Below are positions 8,747 to 63,316 of a DNA stretch of 64,000 bases, piece after piece. A model generated the notes under the pieces. It had not been told where the DNA came from and did not search any database. It saw only the letters and a program-made list of their open reading frames with translations. This DNA comes from Naegleria lovaniensis (lineage: Eukaryota; Heterolobosea; Eutetramitea; Acrasida; Naegleriidae). How positions within the stretch are numbered: position 1 is the stretch's first letter; each line of letters starts with the position of its first letter. The stretch lies in the NCBI RefSeq assembly GCF_003324165.1, contig NW_025407824.1:496001-560000 (forward strand). Direction: 5' to 3'. The position numbers were made by a program, and so were the translations under genes.

Positions 8747-9847
8747 TTAGATTGTCTGTTGTTCAGAAGCGGTGTGATGAGATTCAAACTTTTTCTCTTC
8801 AACAATTTGTTCCGTACTAGAGGATGACACATTGAGACCTAACCTTTTGATTCTATGCTTGTCAATTTCCATCACATTGCCCCAGAATATTTTGTGGTCA
8901 TAGGTAAATGTGGAAGTACCTCCCCATGCAGTATCAATTTGAGCCAGATCAATATGTTTACCAAAGATTTTGGCCTTCTCTGTATCCTTGCCATTCACGA
9001 AATGAATCTTGTTCTTTGTAACAGGATTGATAAATGGAGAAATAGCCTTCCAGAAAATGTTAAAGATAAATGGTGTATCAACCATAAAACATGCTCCTAA
9101 TCTTTCAGGATAGCAGTCATTCAAAATGTTGAGGGTTTGTTTGGCAACGCTTAATGGGAGAGAATTTCGTGTAGAGTATCCATTAAAATCAATAATCCAA
9201 CACATTTGCTCAACGCCTTCTGGCATTGCGTCAACAGCTCTTTCTAAAGTATAAACAAGTAGTTTGATATTTTTTTCGTAATCAGTAGAATTCTCTCTAG
9301 CTGGAAACATGTAAACAATAGGTCTATTTAACTTATCAAATCCTCTCTGAAAGAGCTTTCCGGAGGACGCTTCAGAGTCGATTTCTTCTGCCGTGATTTC
9401 ATCAGGTTTGAATGATCTTCTCCATTCCAAACAAGTGTTCATCAGCTTTTCAGCCTTATTTATATCATAGTCTCTCGCTCTGAGAAAACGAATAAGAGCA
9501 GCTTCGTCCAAGAACCGTCTTTCTCTATCTCCAAGTCTGTCATAGTCAACTCGTTTAATGAAATCGTTTAGAATTTCGTTTTGTTCTTCGGTGAGAGCAG
9601 AACGAGGGTTGAAACCCTTGTTCACGTCAATGAAAGAGGTTGCGCTGTGCCTGATGTTGTTGTTGAATATCAGTTGTGATTCGTGTTTCAAAATATATCA
9701 TCATCGGTTGATTTTAAAATAATGAGCCATCAAAATTTTAAAAGCAAAATAATAGATCCATACAAATCAACATATAAACACTTACATTCTTGTATGGCCT
9801 CTTGTTTTACCACTTCCGTGATGGCTATGGTTTGATGATGAGCTCAT
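8747..9847 (-). CDS. CRAL-TRIO (Sec14-like) lipid-transfer protein
   Basis: Two exons: 9786-9847 and 8747-9650 (321 residues), intron 9651-9785 in phase 2 (GTAAGT ... CAG). The larger open frame has no ATG at its 5' end. Joining to the short upstream exon supplies the ATG at 9847 and keeps the frame. The CRAL-TRIO N-terminal helical part is seen around LIRFLRARDYDINKAEK. The lipid-binding domain follows with GFDKLNRPIVYMFPAR, WIIDFNGYS and the Sec14-like NILNDCYPERLGACFMVDTP block ending in FINPVTKNKIHFV. Such proteins bind and exchange phosphoinositides or other hydrophobic ligands between membranes. The N-terminal 20 residues are Ser/His-rich and probably disordered. Confidence 0.9.
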
Positions 9848-40978: not shown

Positions 40979-43900
40979 ATGTCCAAACAACCAACAACAT
41001 CATCCACTCTCTCAGTGGGACTCTTCCCATATCTTCCTTTGGGTGTTTTAGAAAAGATCAAACAAGCCTTCCCAACTCAAATTTCGGGATATCAAGTCAA
41101 TTTTGTTGACTTTAATTGTTATCAAGATGAGGACTTGGGAAGCCTTCCTGATGTTGCGTGTGTCGATACTACTCTTCTTCCTTTCTTGGTTTCAAAAGGA
41201 GGAGTAAAGGCATTGGATGCTGAAATGGTGAAGGATGTTGCTGGTGAGACTTTTGCATTCGTTACTGAAAGTGCCAAGGTCAATCAACAATTCTACGGTT
41301 TCCCACAATATTTGTGTGCTAACTTTTTGGTGTCATCTCCTTCAGTGGCTTCCCAACAAGTTTCGTCATTGTTGCAACTGGCTCAACAAGTCGGTTATGA
41401 AAAGATCGTTTTCCCTGGCATTACATCAGCAGATGCATATACTGTCCTTTCTTTGTACGAGCAATTTGTGCAATCATCCACATCTTCAATTATTGATTTG
41501 AAACATGATGATCTTCCACAAAAAGCAGAGCAAGTAGATAGACAAGCATGTGAAAAGCACCGAACAATTTTGAACTCTTCAATCATTGCCTCCGAGGCAG
41601 AATTTGTTGCTTCAGTTAAACAACACAAACCTTTGGCTGATTATTATGTTGGATACAGCGAGAGCTTGAGCGAAATCAAGTCAATTCTTGAGAAGGATAA
41701 TTACAAGATTCAACTTGTTGGTGCTAGAGATAAACCATTCGCCTATACTGACGTTTTGGTTTTGAATGCTAATTTGTGTGATGAAAAGCAAAAAGTTGCT
41801 GTTGAAGCTGTTCGTACCTTGTTGACATGTCCAACAATTTTACAAATTTTGTCTGAGGGTTTGACTCTTCCTGCTAACAAGAACAGTATTGAGAAATTGG
41901 CTCAATCATCACCAATTTACAAACAATTATTGGAACAATTTAGCACTTTAGATGTCAAGGTTTTGAGAAACGTTGATTTTGGATCAAGCACTGTCAAGAC
42001 AACGGCTAAGGTTCTTAGACCATACCTCCAACACATTGCTGTTGCTACATTACGTTGTTTGACAGCTGATACAGTTGAAAAAGCAAAGAGTGGACACCCA
42101 GGTATGCCAATCGGAATGAGTCCAATTGCATATGTTTTGTGGAAATTCTTCTTTAAATCATCCAAAGATGATGTAAATTGGATCAACAGAGATCGCTTTG
42201 TTTTGAGCAATGGTCACGGCTGCTCTTTACTTTATGCAATGTTACATATGACTGATTACAACATGACACTTGATGATCTCAAGAAATTCAGAACTTTGCA
42301 TTCAAAGACTCCAGGTCACCCTGAATTTGGTCACACTGAAGGTGTTGATGCAACTACTGGTCCATTGGGTCAAGGTATTTGTAACGCTGTTGGTATGGCC
42401 CTTGCTGAAGCTCACTTGGCTGCTCGTTTCAATAAGGATCAACTCTCACTCTTTGATCATTATACCTATGTCTTTTGTGGAGATGGTTGTTTGATGGAAG
42501 GTGTTGTTACTGAAGGCATGTCATTCGCTGGACATCAAAAATTGAACAAATTGATTGTCTTTTACGACGACAACAATATCACAATTGATGGTAACACTAA
42601 TTTGACCTTCACTCAAGACACACCAGCCGTTGTTAAAGGTTTAGGATGGCATGTTATTACTGTCCATGATGCTGACAATGATTTGCTCTCTATTAAGAAG
42701 GCTATCGAAGAAGCTCACACAATCACTGACAAGCCAATCATGATCATTTGTAAGACCACAATTGGTTATGCTACAAAGATGCAAGGAACTGCTAAGGTTC
42801 ATGGTTCTCCACTCGGTGCTGACGCCTTGAAAAATTTGAAAGAAATTTGTGGATTCAACGGAGATCAATCATTCATTGTTCCAGAAATTGTTAGACAAGA
42901 TTTTGCCCCCATTATTACCAGAAACAAACAACGTCTTGATCAATGGAACTCATTGAAACAACAATATGAGCAACAATACACTGCAGAGGCTCAACAACTT
43001 CAAAGAATGATTTCTCATCAATTGGAAGGAGATATCTTGACCAAGTTACCTCAATATAATGAAGAAAAGAAGATTGCAACCAGATCCACCTCACAACAAG
43101 TTTTGAACGCAATTTATTCGCTCATTCCTTCTCTTGTTGGTGGTTCTGCTGATTTAACTCCATCTAACTTGACCGACGTGAGCGGCTGTAAGGATATGCA
43201 ACCTGAAGACAGAACAGGAAGATATATCAGATTTGGTGTTCGTGAACATGCTATGGTTGCAATTGCTAACGGTATTCTCTACCATGGTATTCTTAGAACC
43301 TATGTTGGTACTTTCTTGAACTTTGCTTCGTACGCTTTGGGTGCTCTTAGATTGAGCGCTTTGTCACAGCTTCCAAACATCTTTATTTTCACTCATGACA
43401 GTATTGGACTTGGTCAAGACGGTCCAACTCATCAACCTGTGGAAGTTCTTCCATTGTTGAGATCCATTCCAAACCATACCGTTATCAGACCTGCTGATGG
43501 AAGAGAAACAAGTGGCGCTTATTTGTATGCTATTCAATCTACAAAGACTCCAACTTCTTTAATTCTTTCTCGTCAAGATTTGCCACAATTGAAGGGTACT
43601 GATATCCAAAAGACACTTCTAGGTGCTTACACCATTCAAAGCCATGAAAATCCAGATGTTATTTTGGTTGGAACAGGCTCTGAGGTTTCACTTGTTGTTG
43701 AAGCTGCTCGTTTATTGTCATCAGACCTTAAAGTCAACGTTGTCAGTATGCCAAGTTGGGAGTTATTCGTCAAGCAACCTCTCGAATACAGAAAATCTGT
43801 TTTCCCAGAAGGTATTCCAGTTGTGAGTGCTGAAGCTTCATCGACATTTGGTTGGACCAGTTTTTCTCACTATTGTGTTGGTATGACCACTTTTGGTGCT

Positions 43901-44041
43901 AGTGCTGCTGCTGAGGAAGTTTACAAGTATCTCAATATCACTGCTGACAATGTTGCTGATAAGGCAAGAAAGTTGGTTAACAAGTATGGTAAGAACGCAC
44001 CAAGACTTCCACTTTCCGTTGTTGGACAAGAAGAGCTCTGA
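40979..44041 (+). CDS. Thiaminase-I-like domain fused to transketolase
   Basis: Intronless, 1020 residues, one uninterrupted frame. Residues 13-330 resemble thiaminase I, a periplasmic-binding-protein fold enzyme: LFPYLPLGVLEKIKQAFP, VNFVDFNCYQD, then FYGFPQYLCANFLV with Cys113 at the family nucleophile position, and VGYSESLSE with Glu228 in the block holding a catalytic acidic residue; PFAYTDVLVLN (Asp258) is also conserved-looking. No signal peptide, unlike bacterial secreted thiaminases. From about 352 a full transketolase follows: EKAKSGHPGMPIGMSPIAYVLW, NGHG, the ThDP-binding GDGCLMEG (501-508) to Asn533, VGGSADLTPSN, the catalytic Glu in RFGVREHAM (about 756), and DGPTHQPVE. Transketolase moves two-carbon units in the pentose phosphate pathway with thiamin diphosphate. 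An N. gruberi thiaminase I is known; I cannot say whether it is this fusion. Confidence 0.9.
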   Translation: MSKQPTTSSTLSVGLFPYLPLGVLEKIKQAFPTQISGYQVNFVDFNCYQDEDLGSLPDVACVDTTLLPFLVSKGGVKALDAEMVKDVAGETFAFVTESAKVNQQFYGFPQYLCANFLVSSPSVASQQVSSLLQLAQQVGYEKIVFPGITSADAYTVLSLYEQFVQSSTSSIIDLKHDDLPQKAEQVDRQACEKHRTILNSSIIASEAEFVASVKQHKPLADYYVGYSESLSEIKSILEKDNYKIQLVGARDKPFAYTDVLVLNANLCDEKQKVAVEAVRTLLTCPTILQILSEGLTLPANKNSIEKLAQSSPIYKQLLEQFSTLDVKVLRNVDFGSSTVKTTAKVLRPYLQHIAVATLRCLTADTVEKAKSGHPGMPIGMSPIAYVLWKFFFKSSKDDVNWINRDRFVLSNGHGCSLLYAMLHMTDYNMTLDDLKKFRTLHSKTPGHPEFGHTEGVDATTGPLGQGICNAVGMALAEAHLAARFNKDQLSLFDHYTYVFCGDGCLMEGVVTEGMSFAGHQKLNKLIVFYDDNNITIDGNTNLTFTQDTPAVVKGLGWHVITVHDADNDLLSIKKAIEEAHTITDKPIMIICKTTIGYATKMQGTAKVHGSPLGADALKNLKEICGFNGDQSFIVPEIVRQDFAPIITRNKQRLDQWNSLKQQYEQQYTAEAQQLQRMISHQLEGDILTKLPQYNEEKKIATRSTSQQVLNAIYSLIPSLVGGSADLTPSNLTDVSGCKDMQPEDRTGRYIRFGVREHAMVAIANGILYHGILRTYVGTFLNFASYALGALRLSALSQLPNIFIFTHDSIGLGQDGPTHQPVEVLPLLRSIPNHTVIRPADGRETSGAYLYAIQSTKTPTSLILSRQDLPQLKGTDIQKTLLGAYTIQSHENPDVILVGTGSEVSLVVEAARLLSSDLKVNVVSMPSWELFVKQPLEYRKSVFPEGIPVVSAEASSTFGWTSFSHYCVGMTTFGASAAAEEVYKYLNITADNVADKARKLVNKYGKNAPRLPLSVVGQEEL

Positions 44042-45643: not shown

Positions 45644-47279
45644 ATGTTTTCAAGTACATCAAGACGTTCTTTCGATTATAATTCCACCAACTCTTCCCAA
45701 ATGGAGGAGGTTCATCAACAAGAAGATAATAATGGCCCAGGTCATAAAGAAGAGTTAGCCATCCATTCAGAGTCAATTGAAATGCCTGAAGTTCAAGATT
45801 CGTTGAAAGTGGACATCGCCAAAGCAGAAGAAATCGAGAAAAGAAAAGAAGTATCATTTCTAAATTGGGATTGTTTCAAATCCAACGTACTTGCTCATCT
45901 CTTGATCTGGTGTAACTTGGCTTTGTTTTCAGTCTTCTTGATTGTAATACCCTACTCGATGAAAATTTGGCATCCTCTAATATTTGCCTTTGTTCGATGT
46001 TGTATTATTGTGCTATCCTTACTCCCATTAATGCTACTCGTGGATCGACACTTTACGTTCAGAAGTGAACAGTACATCATGAAACGAGCTCGAAGATTCA
46101 GAATCAAGCACAAGAATATTCATGCAAGTCGCTATTGGGGATGGATTTATAGTGTCTTTTATGATGACAAGTCTGTATTCGTTTCTTATATCTTAAGAAG
46201 AATACCCAATGCAAAGAAGGCAAAACAGTTGGCTGTGAGTGGAACTTTGGTGGTTCTGAATCAAGTCTTGTTTGTTGCTGGACTCTATTTAACCAATTCC
46301 ACCATCACAGGTGTTATTCAACCGGTGGTACCAGTCATTGTTTGTTCCTTATCCATGATGATGGGAAAAGAAACCAAGTCTATATTCAAATTTATTGGAG
46401 TTCTTATTGCAGTAGGTGGAGGTATGTTTGATTGAAAAGACTTTCTGATAACTTGTTCATAATTTTAATGATATGGATGGACACAACATACTCAGCAATG
46501 CCCATGCTGATCGTTTCTGCTTTAAGCGTGAGTGAATCCACCACAACACAACAAGAACCAGACACCTATTCCAATTCATCTCCACATGAAAGGCTACCTT
46601 ATTACTACTACATCCTTTTAAAAGACACAACCAAAGGAATTAATTTTTCGTTTGTATTAGGCCTCGTGAGTTTGTTTTTCAATACTTTAATTTATGCAAT
46701 TTATTTAGTTTATCAGAGAGGACTGCTGGTTGCTGGAACTCCACCGACGACGGCGACGTTTTGGTCCTTCTTCTTTGGATTAGTCACATCATTCCTTTGT
46801 GCCTCGTATGCTTTCCTTCGTTTTCATTAAGGAGAGTTGATGCAAGGTCGATTTTGGGAGTTCTTTATGCAGCAATTCCTTATGGTAGCCTTCAATTTGT
46901 CATTACATCTTATGCCTCAAAGTTGACTGCACCAACAATGGTGTCTATATATTCAACAGTCTTCCCATTAGTTGCCACAACCGTTGGTGTTGTGTATTTT
47001 AAAGAAACACCTTCTCCTCTTGTATTAGTTGGTGCTGCATTTATTTTGGTTGGATTGCTGGTTGTGATTGGAGCTCGATATCGAGAAACTCAATTGGAAC
47101 GGGCCAATATGATTTCAACACATACTGCAGAAGATCATGACAATAATATTACAGAACAACAACAATCATCTACATCATTACCATTGGTTTCATTGAATAA
47201 TGAGGAAGTTAATTGCTCGCCTTCAGCAAGTGTTGACTGCGAGTCTTCGTCTAAAAGCTCATTGGAGGGCAAAGTGTGA
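45644..47279 (+). CDS. EamA/DMT-superfamily transporter
   Basis: Multipass membrane protein with the ten-helix two-repeat layout of drug/metabolite transporters (close to plant WAT1-type and nucleotide-sugar transporter folds). Exons are 45644-46421, 46496-46805 and 46832-47279 (511 residues). The first intron (46422-46495) is ordinary. The second break, between 46805 and 46832, needs either a 26-nt intron (GTATGC...TTAAG) or a one-base frameshift; see findings. Family blocks: LYLTNSTITGVIQPVVPVIVCSLSMMMGKE closing the first repeat, and YAAIPYGSLQFVITSYASKLTAPTMVSIYSTVFPLVATTVGVVYFKE in the second. The N-terminal 90 residues and C-terminal 70 residues are hydrophilic and cytosolic. Substrate unknown. 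Confidence 0.82.
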
Positions 47280-50996: not shown

Positions 50997-53590
50997 TTAC
51001 TTTGTCGCTATGTTAAATTCAACATCGACAAAGGAATGATTTCGTAAGCACACGAGGAGCTTTCGATTTTCTTCACACTCAACTCCTCTCAATGATGAGC
51101 AAGTGAACACGGTAACCACTTGAAGTTGAGGTGCTTGTTTCAAGATCCCGTCCTTGATAGTTAGAGCAAAAGTGAAATCTTTCACTTGTTTCTCATTCAT
51201 TAAATCAATAGCATACACTTCAAGAGCATATTTGTGAGAACCATTTCGACGTTCCTCAATATTTTTAAATTGTGAGAGAATCCAATCAAAACAAAGTCGT
51301 ATCAAATTGTCAGGCTCCTCCTCACTACAGTGTTGTCCTGCATTGAAAGTAATGGCTTTCATCAATTGAACTCTTTCGTCATTTTCTAAGTGGGCAATTC
51401 TTTGTATGAAAATGTCAACATGTGTCATTAAAAGAATTTTCCTTCGTTCTTTCAAACTTGCTAGTGTCATGGTTTTTTCGAACAAGCTCAAGCTCTCTTC
51501 GAGTCTTGATTTGAACTCTGACGAATCTAAACAAGGTAAATCAAAGTCAGCCAATGAAAAAACAAACACAACGCTTTTCAAAAGGAAAGTTGAGGTTGGT
51601 TTCGTTGAGGCATTAAGGGTCATGATCACTAAATCTCTTTGCGAAGCAAGTCCTGGAGTGTCAATCATTGTAAACTTTTGTAACTTTCTTTTTTCCATCT
51701 CGTCCAACGGTGCAGTTGATTCTTGCATGATTACTTTTGTAATCGAACTCGTCTGTGACGTAGGAGACATTGGTGCAATATTGGAGGAAGAAAATTGAGA
51801 GCGTGGACTCGAACATGCATGACCAAGGGCCATTGACATGATTGGAGAAGGAGATTTTGGAGAAGTACTCACGCCATTATTGCTACTACTACTATTATTA
51901 CTGTTGGATCTCTTTCGAACCATTTCCATTAATTTCTGAGCAACAACATTGGAAGATTTTCGTGTGGTTGGCACTCGAGAGGTTGTTGTACAGCTGTTTG
52001 TTGTGTTCCATTCAGATTCTTCTTCTTGTGAAAGTCTTTCAAAACTATTGACTCTTGAAGTCAATGTCGACGATGTAGGACCAGATCCTCCTCGAGCACT
52101 CTTTGGAAGTAACAATGTAAGACCTTTGGATTCATTCATTGGTGAAGCAGTGTTATTCGCTTGACTCAGATCAAGTTTTGGAATTTTTATGGATCCAATT
52201 GAAACGACAGAAGGCAAGCCAGTGGTTGATGGTTGTTCTTCTGCTGTGCTTGACTCTTGTTTCGAAAGAGGAGCGAGAGGTGTTGCTTGATCAACAACAC
52301 TTGTTGCTTTTCTTAATTGTTTCTTTCTTCTTTCAATCACTCGAATGACTCGAGTACAAATCGATCTTTGAGAATATTGAAATTTGAGAGAATGAATGGC
52401 TGTTGTGATATTCTTGGATTTTAACACTAATTCTCGTATATTTGGTAATTCATTTCGTGGAGAGTCAGTGTGCTCTTGAAATAAAGTCATGTTTTGTGAA
52501 TGAAGAGTTAAACTCTTTCTGGAGGAAGAAGTGTTCAAGAAATTTGATAATTTCAATAACTCTTCTTCATGTTGAAGGAAAAAGTGTAAATAATTTCCAT
52601 ATAATAGTTCATGAACAATACCACAACTGGAATTGATATTCTTCTCCTCCTGTAACTGTTCAAAGCTTTCATTGTTGGACGTATCATTCATGGATGAATA
52701 CTTCTTATGGTAATAGATTTGAGAAATAACTGGTTCTCTAAATAATGCACATAATTGACATAAAAACTCATGATTCGTCCATAGAGATTGTAATTTGTTT
52801 TTTGAAAGTGGATTCACAAAGAGACTTTCAAATGGCAATAGTCGAAACGTATCATTTAAACAATTATCAATTCTGAAATCTTGTTCACTAATATTGTTGA
52901 TTATTTCAGCATGCTGCTGACACTGATCTAATTGAGTGAGCAACATGTCAATCACAGGAGCATGTCGTATATATAAATCTTGCAGTGATGCGGTTTCAGT
53001 AGTGTGTGAGTAGTTTGTTGATGATGCATCATGAAGTAAAGTTGAGCCCTTCAGTGATGATGTGTTGTTTTTGGCATAATAAATCAATCGTTTCATACAT
53101 GTAATGAGATAGGTCATTAAGGTATTTCCAAATTCCATTCTTTCCGTTTGAGAAAGTGTTACCATTGTGTTCGATTGAAATTTCCATTGATTCCACAAAG
53201 TTGCTATTGCATGGATTCACATTGTAAAATTCATCTTTGAGTTTTTCAATGAATTCAAAACTTACTTTTTCCAGAGTCACAACCACCGATCAAAATAATG
53301 CCAAATGGTAATCCACTCTTTTTCTCATTTTCATCCATTTGGGATTGTTCCTTCACAAGTCGAAATAAATCCGTAGTAAACTCCATGTCCTCCTCTTGCT
53401 GTTCAGTAATGGATGGTTCTGTCATCATGTCATTGATGGATGAAGTGTGTTCATTTCGTGTTTGTTCTGACGCATTTCGTTCAGAGGAGGGAATTGTACC
53501 CTCTCGTTTTTGTTTGTTGATTCTTGGGAATGATCTCTCGAAAGAATCATTGTGATTGGATTGAAAAATGGTTGTGTTATGATTGCCCAT
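50997..53590 (-). CDS. Oversized, divergent heterotrimeric G-protein alpha subunit-like protein
   Basis: Two exons, 53266-53590 and 50997-53203, phase-1 intron at 53204-53265 (843 residues; ordinary G-alpha is about 350). The ATG at 53590 gives MGN, allowing N-myristoylation at Gly2. The P-loop spans the junction: IILIGGCDSGKTTLWNQW (GKTT where G-alpha has GKST). MEFGNTLMTYLITCMKRL matches the start of the G-alpha helical domain. A Ser/Thr/Pro-rich insert of about 250 residues lies in the middle. The Ras-like half resumes with FTMIDTPGL (DVGGQ equivalent, Gln replaced by Leu), SVVFVFSLADFDLPCLD and SRLEESLSLFEKTM, then LLMTHVD (NKKD equivalent) and YALEVYAIDLMNEKQVKDF. The classic switch I Arg motif (RVKTTG) is not found. 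Confidence 0.75.
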
Positions 53591-53914: not shown

Positions 53915-55234
53915 TTAAAAAAGAGAGGAATAAATGACATCGTAAGATTTTGAACATATACATGAGCTTCCCTCTTGTTCAAAAAGCTCTCTAGTGACAC
54001 AAAAAGGTGAAACCCATTCAGGTACACTTGTCAATGTACTGGCTCCAATCCATGCCAAATTTCTTGCTTGTGAATTCTTGTCAATCACAATTTCAAGACC
54101 TAACAAGGTTCTTAAATCTGAAGAAAGACGCTCATGGAAATTTTGAATGAGAGGAATACATCCACTTCCTGATACAATAATATTACGTTCCAAGTCCAAT
54201 GACTCATCTGAAATGTATGAAATGCAATCAGCAATGATTTGAGGCAGAGAAGTTTTGTGTTGCGAAGAAAAGAATAAGTCTTCCATGATTTGGTACATAA
54301 TTTCATGACCTAATGTAAGCGTATTTGAGCAAGTACTCGTGTTGGTATCTTCAGCCATTGAGCAAGATTCAACTTGAAAAGATTCTTGTTCATTCTTTTC
54401 CGAATGATTCACACAACACTTTAGATTTTGTTTCACACGATCCAATAACTCTTGTGTGAGAGGAATTTGTTCATTCACCAATTTGAGTCTTCTTGCCAAC
54501 TCTTCATTCAGCTTCTGTTCACTCATTCCACCGTTTTCAATAGTCCTCAATGAATCCATTCTCACTTGTCCATCGACTACTGCAACTACATGACTTGTTT
54601 GATGACCTAAATGCACAACAATTGCACTTATTTTTGAACAAGCCAATGATGTTAAATAGGAAGCATCTTGAATCGATAAATATTTCACGTTTTGGAGTTT
54701 TGAGTGATTGAAAATAATTTCAGTCATTTCTTCTCTAAAATTCAAGTCTTCCATATGACTTAATGATGAGTCAATGATGAGCAAGGCACGCGAGGAGGAT
54801 GATTTTAATTCATTTTCCGAGTCGTTGTTGCTGCTGTCGTGTGTTGTCGTCTCTTGCAAGAGTGTGGTTTGCGAAGAAATTTCAGAAACTACGTTTTCAA
54901 TCTGTTGTGAAAGTGAGTCGTCGGAATCTTGTGTGAAAACAAGTCTCGGAGCATGTTCACCTCCCATTCCTACTGTAATTTCTTTGGAAGATGAAAGATC
55001 GATAATGATCGTTTCAATGTCCTCTTTGAGACTTTCAATCACACTGGCCGCAAACAAATCATATTGTTCAGATGTTGCGTATTCGTCCTCGTACTGAAAA
55101 TCAATTATATTATGGTTCCCCAAAGGACGATTTGATAATTCCTTTTCTTGATGATGAACAGTATTATTTTCAATGATGTCTTGTTCCTCGTTGCGCTCGA
55201 GGTTGGGGACAGAATCTTGATTCGATGAAGACAT
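53915..55234 (-). CDS. Divergent actin-related protein
   Basis: Intronless, 439 residues from the ATG at 55234 (A-run context). Actin-fold signatures: TIIIDLSSSKEITVGMGGEHAPRLVF (phosphate-1-type strand region), ALLIIDSSLS, SAIVVHLGHQTSHVVAVVDGQV (phosphate-2 equivalent, normally DxGxxxT), NIIVSGSGCIPLIQNFHERLSSDL (adenosine-region equivalent of actin's GGTTM segment) and LAWIGASTLTSVPEW near the end, followed by CVTRELFEQEGSSCI. Nucleotide-contact residues are changed (HLGHQTSH, SGSGC), so ATP binding may be weak. Class could be ARP10/ARP11-like or lineage-specific; these would act in dynactin or chromatin complexes. An acidic Asp/Glu/Ser-rich region is inserted around residues 105-150. Confidence 0.8.
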   Translation of the reverse strand: MSSSNQDSVPNLERNEEQDIIENNTVHHQEKELSNRPLGNHNIIDFQYEDEYATSEQYDLFAASVIESLKEDIETIIIDLSSSKEITVGMGGEHAPRLVFTQDSDDSLSQQIENVVSEISSQTTLLQETTTHDSSNNDSENELKSSSSRALLIIDSSLSHMEDLNFREEMTEIIFNHSKLQNVKYLSIQDASYLTSLACSKISAIVVHLGHQTSHVVAVVDGQVRMDSLRTIENGGMSEQKLNEELARRLKLVNEQIPLTQELLDRVKQNLKCCVNHSEKNEQESFQVESCSMAEDTNTSTCSNTLTLGHEIMYQIMEDLFFSSQHKTSLPQIIADCISYISDESLDLERNIIVSGSGCIPLIQNFHERLSSDLRTLLGLEIVIDKNSQARNLAWIGASTLTSVPEWVSPFCVTRELFEQEGSSCICSKSYDVIYSSLF

Positions 55235-61000: not shown

Positions 61001-63316
61001 CGAATTGGGATCCAAAGACGACGATTCTGCACATCAGGTGTCTAAAAGTATTCTCACCATTCCCAAAAACGCTATTCCTTTATTTCTGATGCTAAGTATA
61101 ATTCTCATTTGGATTTGTGGAGGATTAATGTACATGGAAACAAGCTTGAATTTAGAAAATGCCACAATAACTGGTAAGTTGCCGTATGGCGATAATTCAT
61201 TTTTGTAACAATACGTATTTCAACAAAGGACAAACAATTACTGCTGGATCCTTTGTTTTGAGAGTTGTGCACAGAATCGCTTACCGAGTGGGAGAATATT
61301 TCACGTTTTACAGCATTCCACCAGGCGTCCCAGTTAACAACCCCTTACTTACAACAAATGCAGAACTTTTGGCTTATAGACTTCAAGTGAGATCCTACAT
61401 TGCGGATATTAATAACAAGTTCAACAATTTAGTGTATGGGCAGTACAAAACTATTGGCAGATATGAGAGGATTGATGAGCTGTTGAAAGGTGTTTCGAAC
61501 TGTTCGTTGCCCTCCAACTCTACGTTTTTACAACGTTATGCAAGCTGTGTTGGATTGGAAAATATGATTTCTATATATGCTAGTCAGACATCCATGCTAA
61601 ATGATAAGCTGTTCAACAAGGAATATCAGAACAAGACAATCGAAGCGTTCGAAGAATATTTCTTACTCGCTTTAATGGGAGACGCTCTTTCGGACTCTAT
61701 TAATTATTTCATGAGCTCATTTGCAAAGGAGGCCTCCAATCCAAATCTAGAAATTGGTATTATATTCACTATTATCGGGATCTTGGGCCTTTGTGTCCTT
61801 AATTACAACTTTTACACTTCCATGACCACTCATTACAGGCATGTCCAAAGTTTAAGAATGATGCTCAATTACATTCCTCTGAATAACTTGGATTCCAATG
61901 AGACGCTTCGTAACTTTGTTTTGCACAACCAAATTCCAAACAAGCTCACGGCGTTCTTACAGAGTCAAAACAAGAAGGACTTTTCCCACAGTGATACATC
62001 AGGCATCAGAGCTTTGCTGAACGCATCAGTCGATGGCGCTATTTTGTGCAATGCAAGTGGACTGATAGATCTGATAAACCCAGCTGCACAAAGAATGTTT
62101 GGGTACAAACAATCAGATATTGTGGGTATGCAACTTTTCACAGTATTCCAAAAAGGAGATCGAGAAACTATTGAACGTACAATTAATGAGCTTAAATTGA
62201 ATACTAGGAACAGTCATGACGCTACCTCTGGAGACAGTCTAGAATTGGAATGTGTACGAAAGAATCAGTCCACATTCCCTGCAACCATTAACATGTTTAC
62301 AGCCAATCTTGGAGGTTCTCAAATACTTGCTTGCGTCATTAAAGATGTTACACAAGAAAAGAAACACAACGCCCTATTGGCAGAGGAAAAATCAAAGTCA
62401 GAGCACTTACTTAGAAATATATTACCAGAGGCTGTGGCTGCTAAATTGAAATCAGGCGAGACATTTATTGCAGAGAAGTTCAACGATATTACATGCTTCT
62501 TTAGTGACATGGTCAACTTTACGAAAATGTCATCCTCACTCAATCCCTCTGAACTTGTTACCATGTTGAATCACATTGTCAATGGGTACGTCTTTAATTT
62601 CTTTGTTTTATCAGCAATATTCGTTATGAATTATTCTAGGTTTGACGCACTGACTGACAAGTATAATTTGGAAAAGATCAAAACCATTGGAGATGCCTAC
62701 TTTTGTGTTGGTGGATTGTAAGTAGTGTTACAAACTATATTCAACATGCATATAACTGTACATGATGTGAAAGACATTTGCAATCTACTTCAGATCATCC
62801 TGAACGTTGTTTGAGGTTTTCTATTGAAGCCCTCACCGTCGTTCATGATTACAACAGAACCAATAGTGATCAGCAAATTAACATTAGAATTGGTCTAAAC
62901 ACGGGAGGTGCAGTGGCAGGTGTGATTGGAACTAAAAAGGTATGTTTGCTAATTTTTTCGATACGTTTGTCACATTTAAAATTGTAAATAGTTTGCTTAT
63001 GACTTGTGGGGAGACACCATCAACGTAGCTAGTAGAATGGTAAGTATTCTCTGGTGAAGTTATTTTCAATGATCACACATTATTTTTAAAACAGGAATCA
63101 ACTTCATTGCCAGGTAGAATACACCTCAGTAGATCTACATATGAAAGAGTTCATGATCTGGAGTTTGACTTTGAAGAACGAGCAATAGAAGTGAAGGGAA
63201 AGGGAAAGTGTCAAACGTACTTGCTAAAGCCTCACCATCATGTCAACCCATTGTACAATGCTTTGGAAGAGCTGACTAATAATTTCCAAACCAACCTCGA
63301 ACAACATTCAGATTAA
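58084..63316 (+). CDS. Multi-membrane PAS adenylate cyclase with TmcB-like N-terminal region
   Basis: Seven exons: 58084-60030, 60075-61173, 61229-62585, 62640-62717, 62774-62939, 62992-63039 and 63095-63316 (1638 residues, all junctions in phase). The first exon has about seven membrane helices then a helical cytosolic region like protist tmcB proteins. Further helix pairs surround outside loops in exons 2-3. A PAS domain lies at about 1275-1385 (NASVDGAILCNASGLIDLINPAAQRMFGY). A class III cyclase domain follows (about 1430-1625) with metal Asps in FFSDMVNF and IGDAYF, and the transition-state Asn/Arg in INVASRM. Purine-selecting residues are Lys (KIKTIG) and Asp (YDLWGD), the adenylate-type pair. 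It should form a homodimer making cAMP, gated by membrane and PAS input. Naegleria genomes are rich in such cyclases. Confidence 0.93.

Follow-up and report, generated by a model that had tools for sequence, protein, structure and literature searches.

Thiaminase I has been termed an enigmatic enzyme with a mysterious biological function (PMC5627462, in the text accessible), and the reason why organisms make the enzyme is a long-standing question. According to the same part of that source, thiM, thiD, thiE and the gene for thiaminase I lie in one conserved operon, and a role in salvage has been proposed. In the active site a cysteine is activated by an adjacent glutamate, and a thiaminase I from a myxobacterium lost its activity when both Cys and Glu were mutated (accessible sections of PMC10499793). 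These sections also give Naegleria gruberi as the source of the solved structure 4hcw and Paenibacillus thiaminolyticus as that of 2thi. N. gruberi is a confirmed thiaminase I producer (PMC8068756, in the part available), and the Naegleria thiaminase I itself is already known. Among the open-access literature matches listed, as far as their texts are accessible, there is no description of a fusion to transketolase, which may already be in print, and none of a paralogue with a lost site or of nearby salvage fusions. Here we describe such a fused gene in a 64,000-nucleotide stretch of Naegleria lovaniensis DNA, the whole of which we call the window.

One open frame with two enzyme parts

The fused gene spans positions 40979..44041 of the window on the plus strand (536979-540041 of contig C3). 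As the original prediction held, a single frame contains both enzymes: it runs from ATG to TGA over 1020 codons plus stop without an internal stop in the standard code, and domains lie on either side of residue 343. The term 'intronless' is based here on the open frame alone. In the 1020-residue protein, the Pfam domains follow each other in the order Thiaminase_I-like_N (residues 115-249, E 9.2e-77), Transketolase_N (353-682), Transket_pyr (697-869) and Transketolase_C_1 (882-988).

The thiaminase I domain comprises residues 1-342 (40979..42004, +). When residues 1-344 were compared with solved structures, they matched N. gruberi 4hcw with an E value of 4.2e-117 (over residues 6-342) and bacterial 2thi with 8.6e-13. 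The window protein scored 256.1 bits against the Thiaminase I family profile PF22156 (cut-off 27; match at 115-249), and 67.3 bits over residues 7-328 against TIGR04541, the bacterial thiaminase I equivalog, which is under the cut-off of 175. The thiaminase II/TenA family TENA_THI-4 (PF03070) was absent from the nine Pfam families listed for the protein at E values up to 1. In alignment A2, Cys113, Glu228, Asp258 and Asp63 correspond to Cys113, Glu241, Asp272 and Asp64 of 2thi, where we take Asp272 to be the catalytic base. The codon of the catalytic cysteine Cys113 lies at 41315..41317 (+; Cys119 in 4hcw), that of its partner Glu228 at 41660..41662 (+; Glu233 in 4hcw) and that of Asp258 at 41750..41752 (+). 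The profile and both structures thus bear out the proposed thiaminase-I-type domain, including the pair Cys113 and Glu228, which aligns with the catalytic pair of 2thi. Judged by these residues, the domain is very probably catalytically active. Structure predictions, each together with three Paenibacillus relatives, had a mean pLDDT of 37.7 for residues 1-373 and of 38.0 for the full protein, which is too low for the models to be used.

It had also been proposed that the protein lacks a signal peptide. The peak 15-residue hydropathy within the first 60 residues was 1.56 (in the first strand) for the window protein and 0.03 for its paralogue described below, compared to 2.61-2.74 for the three Paenibacillus thiaminases. 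By this measure, which is a hydropathy check and not a signal-peptide predictor, the window protein is without the strong hydrophobic leader of the three Paenibacillus enzymes, in agreement with the proposal.

The remainder of the protein is a transketolase. Residues 353-1020 matched transketolases among the solved structures (top E 3.8e-213, 712.5 bits), and the transketolase profile TIGR00232 gave 832.7 bits over residues 354-1001, above its cut-off of 682.25. The ThDP-binding domain (residues 353-682; 42035..43024, +; PF00456, E 2.3e-133) carries GDG at 501 and DDN at 530. It is followed by the pyrimidine-binding domain (residues 697-869; 43067..43585, +; PF02779, E 1.6e-49) with the catalytic Glu756 within GVREH (motif at 753), and by the C-terminal domain (residues 882-988; 43622..43942, +; PF22613, E 3.8e-33). 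All 12 of the 12 transketolase motifs sought were present, their labels being taken by us after the yeast enzyme. The transketolase was hence found as complete as originally described, with its three domains in order, its ThDP motif and its catalytic glutamate, and by the same comparisons it is almost certainly active. The profile search that could have refuted the original prediction, too, returned a thiaminase I match for the N-terminal part and a transketolase match for the rest.

We regard the fusion as virtually certain to be real. Chance or misassembly as its source is very unlikely, because another gene, on a different contig, is built from the same two parts (see below). The window holds 27 frames of at least 230 residues, 24 of which were scanned with Pfam (those starting at 8747, 36041 and 39474 were left out). 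Bacterial contamination is excluded, since many of the scanned frames match eukaryotic families, i.e. actin, eIF4E, RhoGAP, Ras, F-box and U-box. The S-adenosylhomocysteine hydrolase frame of the genome deviates from 5v96, the N. fowleri enzyme, at 11 of 440 positions (counted by eye), which suggests a host closely related to N. fowleri but distinct from it, most likely the non-pathogenic N. lovaniensis.

Other frames of the window were noted as follows. Directly downstream of the fused gene lies an EamA-type transporter frame (45644-46435, +; PF00892, E 4.3e-08), for which a link to thiamin would be a guess. A 722-residue frame at 50997-53165 (-) has a G-alpha-like stretch at residues 497-661 only (PF00503, E 8.1e-14). 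The frame at 53915-55234 (-) matched part of the actin profile PF00022 (E 1.2e-20), mostly its C-terminal end, and perhaps encodes an actin-related protein; in that at 61186-62721 (+), a PAS domain precedes the beginning of a nucleotide cyclase domain. At the gathering score, Rfam returned zero families in the window and in the loci L001, L002 and L010-L013, so that there is no TPP riboswitch in these stretches, of which L010 stops short of the start of the Paenibacillus operon.

A second fused gene and the N. gruberi chain

The genome (30,690,286 bases on 97 contigs) was searched with profiles exon by exon and the best candidates were scored, a procedure that intron-rich genes might escape. 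Two transketolase and two thiaminase I matches were obtained, all of them in the same two open frames (1044 and 1070 residues from stop to stop), and this exon-wise search found neither a free-standing transketolase nor a free-standing thiaminase I. In the 14 control genomes, Thiaminase_I-like_N occurred in none and Transketolase_N in 13. The second fusion, P0002, encodes 1039 residues with the same domain order (L002:406-3525, +, on contig C41). Compared to the window protein, it is identical at 429 of 675 positions in the transketolase part (64%) and at 90 of 333 in the N-domain (27%). A comparison of the two transketolase parts with one another gave 986 bits, whereas the best solved transketolase reached 712.5. 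The simplest history suggested by these values would be a single fusion followed by a single duplication.

The thiaminase site of P0002 has been lost. Of the catalytic set, Cys113 is replaced by Gln and Asp258 by Ser; Tyr226, Ser227, Ser229 and Tyr256 are lost as well, while Glu228 and Asp63 are retained. Among 61 positions that are identical in the window protein, 4hcw and 2thi, P0002 keeps 28 and alters 33. In its transketolase part, the GDG motif reads SDG. We take the N-domain of P0002 to be a pseudoenzyme, as far as its residues tell. Without Cys113 and Asp258, base exchange cannot explain why the fusion persists in P0002, and a pseudoenzyme in this position speaks against the view that the fusion is maintained for base exchange alone. 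The pairing of thiaminase and transketolase looks like a lasting part of the amoeba's vitamin B1 handling, because this other gene keeps the fusion although the vitamin-breaking site is lost. A second fused gene with a lost site goes beyond the original prediction, and the catalytic window copy and P0002 offer a natural comparison.

The original prediction had further referred to a thiaminase I known from N. gruberi; this link is substantiated by the window N-domain, which is 55.1% identical to 4hcw. With a query spanning the junction (residues 342-350, TAKVLRPYL; 42002..42028, +), 4hcw aligned through this segment to its last residue, 357 (chain E 2.6e-6), and the transketolase 8cip aligned weakly from the same place (E 0.066). 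The end of 4hcw was also considered as a His tag of the vector. We rejected this, as a search with an assumed tag was negative and the chain continues into the transketolase helix. The crystallised chain therefore seems to stop just inside the transketolase part, and because its end falls within the first helix of the window transketolase, N. gruberi probably carries the same fusion. A 2014 study of the N. gruberi enzyme reportedly describes eukaryotic thiaminase I as far larger than its bacterial counterparts, as would be expected of a fusion in N. gruberi. If N. gruberi shares it, the solved structure represents one part of a bifunctional enzyme.

Host thiamin genes and the role of the fused protein

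Two further fusions of thiamin genes lie upstream of the window gene on contig C3, both on the minus strand. One joins TenA to the HMP-phosphate kinase ThiD (550 residues; C3:469904-471556, L013:1456-3108), the other joins the TMP synthase ThiE to the hydroxyethylthiazole kinase ThiM (565 residues; C3:481293-482990, L012:562-2259). The gaps to the window gene are 65,423 bases for TenA-ThiD and 53,989 bases for ThiE-ThiM. With uniform placement, the chance that both salvage fusions lie so near is about 1.5e-5, and that of finding any two out of the three salvage loci no farther away than the larger gap is 5.4e-5, both figures being post hoc. No thiamin family was detected at the threshold used in the other scanned frames between the salvage genes and the window gene. 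A thiamin pyrophosphokinase is present on contig C34. On inspection by eye, we assigned a second Phos_pyr_kin match (44.1 bits) to a gene resembling pyridoxal kinase.

Profile searches of the genome gave no match for ThiC or THI5/NMT1, for which 13 and 12 of the 14 control genomes, respectively, were positive. Short matches were obtained for two other families, namely one of 25 bits for ThiG (cut-off 23), covering 67 of 247 positions, and four of 26.4-34.6 bits for Thi4 (cut-off 26.2), covering 39-42 of 235 positions. These short partial matches were not accepted as genuine ThiG or Thi4 and were read as pieces of other barrels and flavoproteins; since they exceed the family cut-offs, 'salvage only' stays a reading. 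The minimal medium for N. fowleri contains thiamine (PMC8068756, accessible part). The host is probably a thiamin auxotroph with salvage. For the earlier idea that the fused enzyme serves salvage, the salvage genes of the host, their proximity on the contig and the bacterial operon speak in favour, and the role as such would still have to be read from this context. Sensing of thiamin and destruction of its analogues, which had been proposed alongside, may also be among the functions of the enzyme, and a transfer of a thiamin-like ligand to the transketolase would be conjecture.

Our best explanation, to which we assign a probability of roughly 0.4, is a cytosolic bifunctional protein in which the thiaminase half serves salvage or the clearance of false thiamins beside a user of ThDP. 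The window gene would give rise to one cytosolic protein with two enzyme parts. The N-terminal thiaminase I would split thiamin, or damaged forms and mimics of it, with an amine or a thiol taking the place of the thiazole, and the C-terminal part would be a functional transketolase dependent on thiamin diphosphate. The thiaminase part would thus most likely dismantle thiamin-like molecules close to the cofactor user, and ThiM, ThiE, ThiD and TenA could rebuild usable thiamin from the pieces. This reading is based on the domain matches, the two intact active sites, the lack of a strong leader, the salvage genes and the Paenibacillus operon, from which we infer both activities, the cytosolic location, the role in salvage or clearance and any gain from the tether. 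It is weakened by the lost site of P0002, by the TIGR04541 score under the cut-off and by the price of destroying thiamin, which beside a thiamin-dependent enzyme is costly unless prevented by substrate choice or rebuilding. Taken on its own, a role of the window thiaminase in salvage or analogue clearance has somewhat less than an even chance, and functional coupling through the tether is a more tentative proposition. It is a decidedly speculative extension that the transketolase carries its own cofactor surveillance, in which the window isoform would cut thiamin or false thiamins next to the cofactor site, P0002, with the binding fold retained, would act as sensor or tether, and mixed dimers would link pentose-phosphate flux to thiamin supply in an amoeba that depends on salvage.

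The strongest rival, owing to P0002, is that the thiaminase fold is mainly a thiamin- or ThDP-binding module of the transketolase with a regulatory or structural task, base exchange being ancestral or secondary. Its main support is that the N-domain of P0002 was kept despite the lost site, with 28 of the 61 shared positions including Asp63 and Glu228, and the domain is present on both transketolase matches of the genome. However, the window copy has the whole catalytic set, its domain is 55% identical to the thiaminase I of a confirmed producer (PMC8068756, in the part available), and the persistence of the N-domain is by itself a poor indication of function, as a frame upstream of an essential domain stays open regardless. 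We consider a binding or structural module less likely than our best explanation. Somewhat less likely still is an incidental fusion, in which two parts joined by chance work alone and gain nothing from sharing one chain. The third-position G+C of the codons is alike in the two parts of the window gene (0.322 and 0.310), so that nothing points to a join that is recent or special. Against an incidental fusion, both copies are still fused after duplication, with N-domains that have diverged to 27% and transketolases to 64% identity, the fusion is probably shared by N. gruberi, and each partner concerns thiamin.

It is improbable that the enzyme serves attack or defence, leaving the cell by lysis or an unusual route and depriving bacteria or competitors of thiamin. 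An oomycete is indeed starved by a thiaminase I that a myxobacterium secretes (PMC10499793), and thiamine competition has been suggested for Naegleria (PMC8068756), both according to the sections accessible, but the window protein has no strong hydrophobic leader and ties the thiaminase to a housekeeping enzyme. Expression of the one genomic frame as two separate mRNAs or proteins is highly improbable, given the same architecture in the second gene on another contig, the 4hcw chain that crosses the junction, and the first Met past the junction (residue 376), which lies beyond the His of SGHPG (371-375) and makes a separate transketolase start unlikely. With the cytosolic bifunctional protein as the favoured reading, a thiaminase I-transketolase protein in a genome whose salvage genes lie in part nearby renders an intracellular role in salvage or surveillance testable in one protein.

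Comparison with known enzymes

The fused protein was finally set against relatives elsewhere. In the A2 pattern scan of genome contigs, 47 stretches matched and three encode relatives, all from Paenibacillus and none of the three fused; as the scan is pattern-based, distant branches, e.g. the myxobacterial one, would escape it. No relatives of the thiaminase part or of the transketolase part were found in viral contigs, nor of the thiaminase part in plasmids or phages. When the three Paenibacillus genomes were searched with the profile, each had a single strong match of 361-420 bits, in an open frame of 419-427 residues, besides one or two weak ones (20.4-24.5 bits). At one of these loci (L010), frames that we named ThiD-like and ThiE-like by eye precede the thiaminase gene on its upstream side.

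The secreted Paenibacillus thiaminase I (2thi; L008-L010) and the window domain share the family and the catalytic residues, and salvage genes lie near both. They differ in that the bacterial enzymes are only 24-25% identical, are encoded by stand-alone frames of 409-427 residues and have a hydrophobic leader. The transketolases 5hje, 1gpu and 1r9j, presumably those of yeasts and Leishmania, match the transketolase half over their whole length and share the 12 motifs sought; unlike the window protein, they are chains of 673-697 residues without a thiaminase part. A TenA-like protein of zebrafish is likewise a eukaryotic enzyme with thiaminase I activity, but as a homologue of bacterial tenA it belongs to another family (PMC9839694, accessible text). 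The TenA of the host differs from the zebrafish enzyme in being fused to ThiD, and is encoded by a separate gene. A further close system is the thiaminase I of N. gruberi (4hcw, 4hcy), which has the same domain, with 55.1% identity over 336 positions and the same Cys, Glu and Asp, whereas it was solved as a 357-residue chain without the transketolase.
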